This document shows positions 20,059 through 26,496 of a stretch of DNA of 64,000 nt, in pieces (position 1 is the stretch's first letter; each line of letters opens with the position of its first letter). The position numbers were made by a program, and so were the translations under genes. Where the stretch lies: positions 1,178,001 to 1,242,000 of the forward strand of contig NZ_BRPL01000002.1 in NCBI RefSeq assembly GCF_027923585.1, in the 5' to 3' direction. This stretch comes from Philodulcilactobacillus myokonensis (GTDB lineage Bacteria; Bacillota; Bacilli; Lactobacillales; Lactobacillaceae). Below the pieces are notes generated by a model. That model saw nothing but the letters and a program-made list of their open reading frames with translations. It was not told the DNA's origin and did no database searches.

Positions 20059-21855
<1,797 letters not shown>

Positions 21856-22942: not shown

Positions 22943-24298
22943 GTGAAATACGCTGATAAACTTTTACCAAGGGAAAAAGTCTTTCGGGACCCCGTCCATA
23001 ATTATATCTACGTTCAAAATCAAGTGATTGCTGATTTAATCGACACACCCGAGTTTCAACGCTTAAGGCGGGTAAAACAATTAGGAACAACTTCATTCAC
23101 ATTTCATGGTGCTGAACATTCCCGTTTTGGTCACTGCTTGGGCGTCTATGAGATTACAAGGAGAATCTGTAATAACTTTCAAAAAAATTATCCAACTAAA
23201 AAAGCTGGCGATGGCCTTTGGGATCAATCAGACCGCCTAGTTGCCCTATGTGCCGCTTTACTTCATGATATCGGTCATGGTGCTTATTCACACACATTTG
23301 AACATATTTTTAAAACTGACCATGAAGCCATCACAAGAGAAATTATCACTTCTAATCAAACGGCGGTTAATCACATTCTAAAACAGGTCAGTCCTGATTT
23401 TCCTGAAAAAGTTGCGTCAGTTATTAAAAAAACTTATCAAAATCCGCAGGTCGTTCAGATGATTTCAAGCCAATGTGATGCTGATCGAATGGACTATTTA
23501 TTGAGGGATTCATATTACACTGGAACTAATTATGGTGATTTTGATTTAAACCGGATTTTAAGGATCATGCGTCCGTATAAAAATGGAATCTGCTTTGAAA
23601 GTAATGGAATGCATTCAGTCGAAGATTATATTATCGGTCGGTTTCAAATGTATCAGCAAGTATATTTCCACCCCGTTTCAAGATCAATGGAATGTGTTTT
23701 AGACCGTCTATTAGCAAGAGCTAAGCATTTATATCAGCATCATCCTAAAACGAACGGGTTGCACGCTGACTTGTTGGAGCCATTTTTTAACCACCAGTTT
23801 AATTTAGAAGATTATCTAGAATTAGATGATGGGGTTTTAAATACATACTTCATTAGTTGGAAGCACCACGCTAAGGATAAAATTCTACGGGATCTAGCCC
23901 ATCGTTTTATCGATCGAAGACCATTTGCATCCGTCAAATACAATCAACAAACTAAATCTGAAATCCCAAAGATGCGAAAATTGATTAAGGCAGCCGGGTT
24001 TGATACAAATTACTATACCACCACTAATAACAGTTTTGATTTGCCATATGACATCTATTACCCAAATAAAAAAAACGTCAGCGGCATCAATTTAAAACGC
24101 CCGGATGGATCATTAGTTGAACTATCAACCGTTAGTTCATTGGTAAACGCCATTACCGATAAATTACAAGGTGATCAACGCTTCTTTTTTCCAAAAGAAA
24201 TGTTAGAATGTGGCGATAAGGTAGAAATTTTCCAACCGCTTTATCAAAAATTTCAGCAACATATTAAAAATAATACGATTATTAAAAAGAGAGGATGA
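22943..24298 (+). CDS. HD-domain phosphohydrolase (YwfO/SAMHD1-like)
   Basis: 451-aa cytosolic metal-dependent phosphohydrolase. The HD signature is complete: His64 in H-S-R-F-G-H, the H-D pair at 108-109 in L-L-H-D-I-G-H-G, and a later Asp in C-D-A-D-R-M-D-Y near residue 187. Relatives such as YwfO and EF1143 hydrolyse dNTPs; the substrate here is inferred. GTG start at 22943 eight bases after AAGGAGG. It is followed after six bases by a HAD phosphatase, suggesting a two-gene operon. Confidence 0.88.
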   Translation: MKYADKLLPREKVFRDPVHNYIYVQNQVIADLIDTPEFQRLRRVKQLGTTSFTFHGAEHSRFGHCLGVYEITRRICNNFQKNYPTKKAGDGLWDQSDRLVALCAALLHDIGHGAYSHTFEHIFKTDHEAITREIITSNQTAVNHILKQVSPDFPEKVASVIKKTYQNPQVVQMISSQCDADRMDYLLRDSYYTGTNYGDFDLNRILRIMRPYKNGICFESNGMHSVEDYIIGRFQMYQQVYFHPVSRSMECVLDRLLARAKHLYQHHPKTNGLHADLLEPFFNHQFNLEDYLELDDGVLNTYFISWKHHAKDKILRDLAHRFIDRRPFASVKYNQQTKSEIPKMRKLIKAAGFDTNYYTTTNNSFDLPYDIYYPNKKNVSGINLKRPDGSLVELSTVSSLVNAITDKLQGDQRFFFPKEMLECGDKVEIFQPLYQKFQQHIKNNTIIKKRG

Positions 24299-24304
24299 TC
24301 AGAT

Positions 24305-25123
24305 ATGTCAATTAAATTAATTGCAATTGATATCGATGGAACACTATTAAATCCAAAAAAACAATTAACGGAAGCCAACAAGGAAGCAATTCAAAACGCA
24401 AGAAATCATGGAATCAAAATTGTTCTCTGTTCTGGGCGCCCACTAACCGGTGTTAGACCATATTTAAAGAAATTAAACCTTAAGGGTGAAAGCGAATATG
24501 CAATCACCTTTAACGGTGCCATGGCGCAGGATGCTGATGGTAAGGTTATCTCACACTTAGCATTAACAAACGATGAATTCATTGATGCAGAAGCATTAAG
24601 CCATAAGTGGAATACTAATTTTCAAGTTGAAACAACCAATTCAATCTATATCTTCAACCGTGACGTCAGTAAATACTCTGTAATGGAAAGCTTCTTAGTT
24701 AACCTTCCAATTAAGTTTAGAACCGTTAGAGAAATCGTAAATAGTGATACACCCGTCACTAAAACCATTTTTATTGCAGATCCTGAAAAGATTACCAAAA
24801 TTAAGCAAAATATTCCAGATGATATTTTAAAAAAGTTATACGTAGTTCAAACTGAACCATGCTTTTTAGAAATGATGAATAAGCACGCTAGCAAAGGTCA
24901 TGCACTAAAGAACCTTGCTAAAAAACTTAATTTAGATTCATCCAATGTGATGGCAATTGGTGATCAAGGTAATGACGTCTCAATGGTTAAATATGCTGGA
25001 TCAGGAATCGCAATGGGCAATGGAATTCCTGATGTTAAATCAGTTGCTAACCATATCACAAAAACCAACCAAGAAAATGGTGTTGCCTATGCAATCAATC
25101 ATTGGGCCTTAAATCAAAAATAA
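24305..25123 (+). CDS. HAD-superfamily Cof-type sugar-phosphate phosphatase
   Basis: 272-aa HAD IIB phosphatase. Motif I is D-I-D-G-T-L-L near residues 9-15 (nucleophile Asp9), motif II is S-G-R-P near residue 44, motif III Lys is near 200 (S-K-G-H-A-L) and motif IV is G-D-Q-G-N-D near 220. The C2B cap lies between residues 85 and 190. Cof/YidA enzymes act on various sugar phosphates and pyridoxal phosphate; the substrate cannot be assigned. GGATGATC site upstream of the ATG. Confidence 0.88.
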   Translation: MSIKLIAIDIDGTLLNPKKQLTEANKEAIQNARNHGIKIVLCSGRPLTGVRPYLKKLNLKGESEYAITFNGAMAQDADGKVISHLALTNDEFIDAEALSHKWNTNFQVETTNSIYIFNRDVSKYSVMESFLVNLPIKFRTVREIVNSDTPVTKTIFIADPEKITKIKQNIPDDILKKLYVVQTEPCFLEMMNKHASKGHALKNLAKKLNLDSSNVMAIGDQGNDVSMVKYAGSGIAMGNGIPDVKSVANHITKTNQENGVAYAINHWALNQK

Positions 25124-25147
25124 TTCAGTTAAATTTTAAATTTCAAC

Positions 25148-25175
25148 TTGCAAAACAATGTCAATTTGTTATAAT
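25148..25175 (+). promoter_or_regulatory. Promoter of the tRNA-Lys-like gene
   Basis: TTGCAA (25148-25153) and a perfect TATAAT (25170-25175) spaced by 16 bases, placing transcription start near 25182, about 16 bases before the tRNA-like 5' end. Confidence 0.65.
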
Positions 25176-25197
25176 TAAATTGTTGTCAAGTTGATAT

Positions 25198-25269
25198 GAG
25201 CTGATAGCTCAAATGCAGAGCACCTAACTCTTTCTTAGGTAGATGTTGGTCCGAATCCTTCTCAGCTCA
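25198..25269 (+). tRNA. Aberrant tRNA-Lys(CUU)-like RNA
   Basis: A cloverleaf can be drawn: acceptor GAGCTGA/TCAGCTC (7 of 7 pairs), D stem GCTC/GAGC (4 of 4), anticodon stem CCTAA/TTAGG (5 of 5) and a seven-base loop CTCTTTC giving anticodon CUU. However, the D loop (AAATGCA) lacks the G18-G19 pair, position 37 is U instead of a purine, the T loop is TCCGAAT (C at position 55), and only 3 of 5 T-stem pairs form. No CCA is encoded. It has its own promoter and terminator. It may be a decayed tRNA or a specialised one that does not serve normal translation. Confidence 0.6.
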
Positions 25270-25276
25270 TCATATT

Positions 25277-25310
25277 AAAAGCTAGTGGTATATTTGCCAC
25301 TAGCTTTTTT
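25277..25310 (+). terminator. Terminator of the tRNA-Lys-like gene
   Basis: Perfect 12-bp stem (AAAAGCTAGTGG arm) with an eight-base loop and a run of six T. Confidence 0.9.
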
Positions 25311-25328
25311 AGTTTAATTATTAAATAA

Positions 25329-25360
25329 AAAGCCGTGAATGAAAAATCATTCACGGCTTT
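25329..25360 (-). terminator. Terminator after prs
   Basis: Perfect 14-bp stem (AAAGCCGTGAATGA arm) with an A4 loop, followed by T-runs on the minus strand, just downstream of the prs stop. Confidence 0.88.
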
Positions 25361-25372
25361 CATTTGTTAAGA

Positions 25373-26356
25373 TTAAATTTCTTTTGAATCAATAAAACGT
25401 TGCTTGAACAATGGACTAACTGGTTCATTTTTATCAATTCTGGTAATGGCATTTGCTAATAAAGGTGCAACCGAAATTTGACTAATATTATCAATTTTCT
25501 TTTCTGCTGGCAATTGAATTGAATCAGTTACAACCAGTTTCTTAATTGGTGAATTCTTGATTCGATCAATTGCAGGTCCAGATAGAACTGGATGGGTCGC
25601 ACAAGCATAAACTTCTTTTGCACCTGCATCCATCAAGGCTTTCGCACCTAAAGTCAATGTTCCGGCAGTATCGACAATATCATCAACCATTAAGCAGCTC
25701 TTTCCTTTAACGTCACCAATAATGTTCATTACTTTAGCAACGTTTGCCTTTGGACGACGTTTATCAATGATTGCAATTGGTGCTTTCAATGAATCAGCAA
25801 CCGCCCGTGCACGGACAACCCCACCGTGGTCGGGTGAAACAACAACTGAATCACTACCAAATCCTTCATCATGAAAATAACCGGCAAATAATGGAGCTCC
25901 CATTAAATGATCAACTGGAACGTTAAAGAATCCTTGAATTTGAGCGGCATGGAGATCTAATGTTACAACCCGGTCAATTCCAGCTGTCTGTAACATGTCA
26001 GCCACTAATTTAGAAGTAATGGGTTCCCTAGCATGAGTTTTGCGATCCTGTCTTGCATAACCATAATAAGGAATAACAACATTAATAGTTTGAGCACTAG
26101 CCCGCTTTAATGCATCGATCATAATTAATAATTCCATTAAATTATCATTAACGGGATTAGATGTTGATTGAACAATATAAACGTTATCGCCACGAACACT
26201 TTCTTCAATATTGACATTAATTTCACCATCACTAAAATGTCCAATTTTAGCTTGGCTTAATTTAATTCCCATTTCATTCGCCATGCTTTCAGCCAACGGA
26301 CGATTAGAATCTAAAGAAAAAAGTTTCAATTTTGGATCAATATTATTATTAGCCAT
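25373..26356 (-). CDS. prs: Ribose-phosphate pyrophosphokinase
   Basis: Makes PRPP from ribose 5-phosphate and ATP for purine, pyrimidine, NAD, His and Trp synthesis. The R-Q-D-R ATP-binding stretch (near 100), D-L-H-A-A-Q near 130 and the PRPP loop [10 protein letters not shown] near 223 are present. The start is ATG at 26356, five bases after GGAGG; the frame extends to a GTG at 26368 that overlaps the site. 327 aa. It is last in the metG-to-prs cluster and is ended by a strong terminator; PurR, which senses PRPP, is encoded two genes upstream. Confidence 0.95.
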
Positions 26357-26496
26357 ATGTTCCTCCACCCAATTTAAAATTTATTATTATCATTATCAAT
26401 TATATCATTTCAATGATGGATTTAATCCATCAATTACATCATGATAATAAATTTATTAATTGAAATACATCACCTTTATTATAACAGAACCAAATC

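Follow-up and report, generated by a model that had tools for sequence, protein, structure and literature searches.

Genes and transcription signals at the locus

The genome of Philodulcilactobacillus myokoensis WR16-4T, a sugar-loving lactic acid bacterium, comprises 1,672,155 bases, and the window referred to here is the whole 64-kb stretch of it that was analysed, with positions counted from its first base. Between a gene for a HAD-family hydrolase and the convergent prs gene (ribose-phosphate pyrophosphokinase), the window carries a tRNA-Lys(CUU)-like gene flanked by a predicted promoter and intrinsic terminator (Table 1). ARAGORN called this gene as tRNA-Lys(ctt) at 25197-25271, and Rfam model RF00005 matched it with 49.9 bits (E 4.1e-9) against a gathering score of 29 bits, which makes the RNA a member of RF00005 and answers a profile check proposed in an earlier, sequence-only reading of this DNA. 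CCA is not encoded, as is the case for the host's other tRNAs listed.

Table 1. Positions in the window of the tRNA-like gene, its parts and its neighbours.
Feature	Position	Strand	Description	Basis
HAD-family hydrolase gene	24305-25123	+	upstream neighbour, outside the element	
Promoter	25148-25175	+	TTGCAA-16-TATAAT with TG (extended -10)	
tRNA-Lys(CUU)-like RNA	25198-25269	+	72 nt including A73	ARAGORN, Rfam
D loop	25211-25217	+	AAAUGCA, 7 nt, GC in place of G18-G19	
Anticodon loop	25228-25234	+	CUCUUUC: anticodon CUU, U37, C38	
T arm	25245-25261	+	GUUGG-UCCGAAU-CCUUC, C55	
Intrinsic terminator	25277-25308	+	14-bp stem, T-rich tail next to it	
Terminator of prs	25328-25361	-	own terminator of prs	
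prs	25373-26368	-	convergent downstream neighbour, outside the element	

The good promoter and strong terminator described in the sequence-only reading were both recovered, and both resemble the signals that flank other single tRNA genes in the same genome. A distance of 22 nt separates the end of the -10 element from the acceptor stem. The stretch ATTGTTG follows the -10, as it does in the single tRNA genes Arg-UCU, Arg-UCG and Arg-CCU, with a variant of this motif in the Gly-CCC gene; the window has a single occurrence of the pattern TGNTATAAT-N2-9-TTGTTG. We infer that this tRNA-type promoter drives transcription of the gene.

The neighbourhood of an HD protein gene, the HAD gene and prs is common to several genera, in several of which the gap between HAD and prs holds either a small membrane-protein-like gene or nothing. 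That small gene is absent from 25124-25372 of the window, where the tRNA-like gene takes its place. No tRNA was present between HAD and prs in the loci of other genera fetched through the HAD gene, nor in 19 fetched through prs; these loci of other genera therefore offered no canonical tRNA-Lys(CUU) in that position, the finding that in sister strains would have marked the present copy as a pseudogene. No genomic island was seen beside the tRNA-like gene. Elsewhere in the window, the pyrG (CTP synthase) reading frame at 20059-21852 (-) has a longer N-terminal extension than usual, its start probably lying further in, and a sub-threshold fluoride riboswitch match (24097-24166 (-); 21.9 versus 34 bits), inside the HD-protein gene but on its antisense strand, is probably due to chance.

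Structure of the tRNA-like RNA

Read 5' to 3' by structural element, the RNA is GAGCUGA UA GCUC AAAUGCA GAGC A CCUAA CUCUUUC UUAGG UAGAU GUUGG UCCGAAU CCUUC UCAGCUC A. The acceptor (GAGCUGA/UCAGCUC, 7/7), D (GCUC/GAGC, 4/4) and anticodon (CCUAA/UUAGG, 5/5) stems together form 16 of 16 pairs, in agreement with the earlier description of three fully paired stems and a CUU anticodon. The T stem, by comparison, is 3/5 paired, with the two reported U-U mismatches falling at 50-64 and 51-63. Against shuffled versions of itself, the complete transcript has a far better fold (z -4.8), and the tRNA part alone only a modestly better one (z -1.8).

The D arm is the only one without a GG dinucleotide among 76 distinct tRNAs examined, and with GC at 18-19 and C at 55 the G18-G19/U55-C56 elbow is incomplete and the G19-C56 pair lost. 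The reported absence of G18-G19 stands in this sense; G18, however, may be present and could pair with C55. The C55 itself was correctly read but breaks no rule here, as the U54-C55-C56 T loop also occurs in the host tRNA-Gly(UCC) and tRNA-Gly(CCC), and it was dropped as an anomaly. The anticodon loop differs from the CUCUUAA (A37, A38) of the normal tRNA-Lys(CUU); U37, confirmed here, replaces the A37 found in every other distinct tRNA-Lys sequence listed, and a U at this position cannot be t6A-modified.

The sequence-only reading had the RNA breaking several universal tRNA rules, which holds for the elbow, position 37 and the T stem, but the core is better preserved than this implied. Read from the sequence, U8-A14, A9/U12-A23 and G46 for the 13-22-46 triple are all kept, and the Levitt pair is kept through a double change (G15-C48 to A15-U48). 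The LysRS identity elements, C34, U35 and U36 of the anticodon together with A73, are likewise retained.

The host tRNA set

Above the Rfam cut-off, 63 tRNA matches were found in the genome, the candidate included, and 63 is also the published tRNA count for WR16-4T (PMC10284405). Within the class I tRNAs of this set the candidate has the lowest score, the lower scorers being long-variable-arm tRNAs. A search of the genome for normal lysine tRNAs, as the sequence-only reading had suggested, returned one tRNA-Lys(CUU) (contig C2, 223994-224066 (-)) and two tRNA-Lys(UUU) genes; because these three cover AAA and AAG, the candidate is an extra copy beyond the translational set.

The highest alignment scores of the candidate, among 94 tRNAs compared, were to tRNA-Lys genes, with identities of 62.5% to the host's own CUU gene and 66.7% to its UUU gene, where the CUU-type matches in relatives mostly stand at 86-97%. 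Conservation of the normal tRNA-Lys(CUU) extends across the Lactobacillaceae, with at most four non-stem differences among 21 distinct sequences from relatives; the candidate has 12 non-stem differences from the host's CUU gene and 12 from its UUU gene.

In tRNA-Gly UCC and CCC, which otherwise seem to be ordinary translational tRNAs, C55 in place of U55 is a rare deviation. The host also has, beside ordinary tRNA-Asn copies, a second and divergent kind of tRNA-Asn(GUU) in three near-identical tandem genes (contig C2, 351025-351380) with U1-A72 and a C4xA69 mismatch. In another Lactobacillaceae genus, five equally scoring tandem tRNA genes with a spacing of ~109 bases (contig C2 of that genome, 529333-529840) were among the matches listed.

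Search for relatives

DNA searches, which relatives below ~70% identity could escape, returned no relative of the RNA in 60 related genomes, in 397 other Lactobacillaceae genomes (where what matched was either a terminator hairpin or a weak similarity due to chance) or in the phages and plasmids searched, and two exact patterns of the RNA had no match in viral contigs. A diverged relative may be present elsewhere in the genomes of three other genera compared. Judged by these sequence searches, the tRNA-like gene is probably lineage-specific, being a single-copy gene of one species. An integration-site remnant was rejected, the tRNA part having no second copy in the genome.

Compensated stems and neutral simulations

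Relative to the host's own tRNA-Lys(CUU), six stem pairs of the candidate are changed on both sides with pairing kept, and relative to tRNA-Lys(UUU) four are. Only 2 of the 21 stem pairs are broken, where substitutions placed at random to an equal divergence break ~9-10 on average; the probability of two or fewer broken pairs in neutral simulations was 1.6e-4 from the CUU ancestor and 3.3e-4 from the UUU ancestor. Because such genes are noticed only if they are tRNA-like, ARAGORN was also applied to 15,000 products of simulated neutral decay per ancestor and found none (CUU) and two (UUU), neither with two or fewer broken pairs. A positive control spanning 0-16 changes behaved as expected; with 12 random changes introduced, ARAGORN still found 49 of 500 copies.

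Given the compensated stems and the simulations, the candidate is not a plainly decayed copy of a resident tRNA-Lys. The earlier suggestion that the gene is in decay and that only its stems preserve it accordingly falls in its simplest form (4-6 compensated double changes, P ~1e-4) and survives as the late decay, with loss of the elbow, of a gene that had diverged under constraint in this genome or elsewhere.

A lysine tRNA possibly kept out of translation

The candidate is a genuine and unusual gene of a single species, and it joins a small set of atypical or pseudo-tRNAs. Lysine identity consists of the anticodon plus A73 (PMC9976931), and charging of the RNA is plausible because these LysRS determinants are kept. 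EF-Tu affinity is set by the pairs 49:65, 50:64 and 51:63 (PMC11231383), two of which are U-U in the candidate. Taken jointly, the mismatched EF-Tu pairs, the missing GG at 18-19 and U37 point to a lysyl-tRNA held outside translation, and the setting aside of the RNA from translation proposed in the sequence-only reading fits these features and the loss of G19-C56. Our preferred reading, to which we assign a probability of roughly 40%, is a lineage-specific lysine tRNA that can probably be lysylated and is kept out of translation, by analogy with the staphylococcal non-proteinogenic tRNA-Gly and the B. cereus tRNAOther.

Such an RNA would be transcribed from its own promoter and processed like a tRNA, and LysRS would probably still charge it through A73, U35 and U36. 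EF-Tu would hold it weakly at the U-U positions 50-64 and 51-63. With the elbow pair gone, and with a U37 that would lack t6A and stack badly on the AAG codon, the RNA would find little or no use in translation, and selection would have kept the stems and core, not the elbow, as for a lysyl donor or a lysylated decoy. We infer the charging of the RNA, its exclusion from EF-Tu and the ribosome, and its use from these features.

One close parallel is the S. aureus non-proteinogenic tRNA-Gly that serves as donor for the cell-wall pentaglycine, in which GG18-19 is replaced by UU or CU and pairs 49-65 and 51-63 are weakened (PMC4052509). Both RNAs are extra isoacceptors beside normal ones, and in both GG18-19 is replaced and T-stem pairs that set EF-Tu affinity are weakened (PMC4052509, PMC9976931). 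The candidate differs in being a single-copy lysine tRNA of one species whose host has an L-Lys-D-Asp wall and none of the FemAB enzymes that go with the tRNA-Gly. The pseudo-tRNA tRNAOther of B. cereus is alike in being a stand-alone RNA of aberrant structure and unclear use with a lysine link; in tRNAOther, however, the anticodon is that of Trp, and the gene borders a genomic island and forms part of a larger RNA (PMC3399842), whereas the candidate has a lysine anticodon, its own predicted promoter and a close terminator, with no island seen adjoining. With the canonical tRNA-Lys(CUU) of the Lactobacillaceae the candidate shares anticodon, A73, D stem and core, and it departs from it at the elbow, positions 37-38 and the T stem.

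Nearly as likely as the set-aside reading is that the gene is decaying recently, that is, that a divergent tRNA-Lys, acquired elsewhere or long diverged under normal constraint, then became superfluous, after which the D loop, T arm and positions 37-38 were lost. The three normal tRNA-Lys genes make the candidate redundant, a tRNA is missing at the locus in all other genera inspected, every defect lies in the D loop, T arm, variable loop or anticodon loop, and a compensated gene with 6-12 late changes would look alike, ARAGORN still recovering some copies with 12 changes (see above). Recent decay sits less well with an intact promoter and terminator, with 16 pairs free of defect in the acceptor, D and anticodon stems, and with the compensated tertiary pair A15-U48; nor was a donor sequence found in the phages, plasmids, viral contigs or family searched. 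Should decay be all there is, the gene still illustrates how the elbow of a redundant tRNA can be lost with the stems remaining paired.

It is unlikely, in turn, that the RNA still serves translation as a weak isoacceptor, a tRNA-Lys(CUU) whose constraint has relaxed. The retained core interactions and lysine identity elements, an Rfam score above the cut-off, and a G18-C55 pair that may replace G18-U55 (C55 being tolerated in two host tRNA-Gly genes) would allow it; the lowest score among the class I tRNAs of the genome, a U37 although the codon read starts with A, the lost G19-C56 pair and the two mismatched EF-Tu pairs argue against it.

To our knowledge, very few bacterial tRNAs are set aside from translation. 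A lysine tRNA that occurs naturally with its identity elements intact and its EF-Tu and elbow contacts damaged offers a ready test case, and its host is a harmless food bacterium.

Candidate users: MprF, wall ligases and T-boxes

The genome has a single match to the MprF family (PF09924, E 1.4e-90), a long and apparently intact membrane protein. No known consumer of lysyl-tRNA other than MprF was found in the genome, which makes lipid lysylation, already named as an example in the sequence-only reading, the most concrete proposal for a use and MprF a possible user. In this proposal the RNA would be a dedicated lysyl donor: LysRS would charge it, EF-Tu could not hold it, and MprF would gain its own supply for lysylating membrane lipids. 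Nothing links the protein to the RNA. The MprF gene lies ~62 kb from the tRNA-like gene, and the MprFs of other bacteria use ordinary tRNA-Lys, both of which count against a dedicated donor. The poorly lysylated tRNAOther of B. cereus, the closest precedent, moreover had no effect on lipid lysylation (PMC3399842). We consider this use distinctly unlikely. How MprF diverts lysyl-tRNA from EF-Tu and translation has been described as open (PMC9976931). If the donor proposal is true, the RNA would explain how MprF holds its own against translation, and we know of no earlier tRNA set apart for MprF.

The bridge of an L-Lys-D-Asp wall is not tRNA-derived. Matches to FemAB ligases are absent from the genome, consistent with the published A4alpha L-Lys-D-Asp murein of P. 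myokoensis (PMC10284405), and these two facts together exclude a donor for the cell-wall cross-bridge.

A regulatory small RNA, acting as a T-box ligand, as a decoy for an enzyme or nuclease of tRNA-Lys, or by base pairing, is very unlikely. The predicted autonomous transcription unit would suit such a role, which has been proposed for tRNAOther of B. cereus (PMC3399842). Evidence for a target was nil, and among the 27 T-box leaders of the 1.67-Mb genome none has a readable lysine (AAA/AAG) specifier (specifiers were read by eye, a few with uncertainty). T-box binding relies on the tRNA elbow pair G19-C56, which the candidate has lost. The T-box version of the regulator or tRNA mimic suggested in the sequence-only reading was set aside for want of a matching leader among those read by eye.

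Many of the 27 T-boxes have Met (AUG) specifiers, with tandem pairs on contig C4. At 689639-689887 of contig C2, the tRNA-Gly(CCC) gene ends ~3 bases before the T-box leader (CGU-like specifier) of an apparent argS, and the tRNA and this leader may share a transcript.
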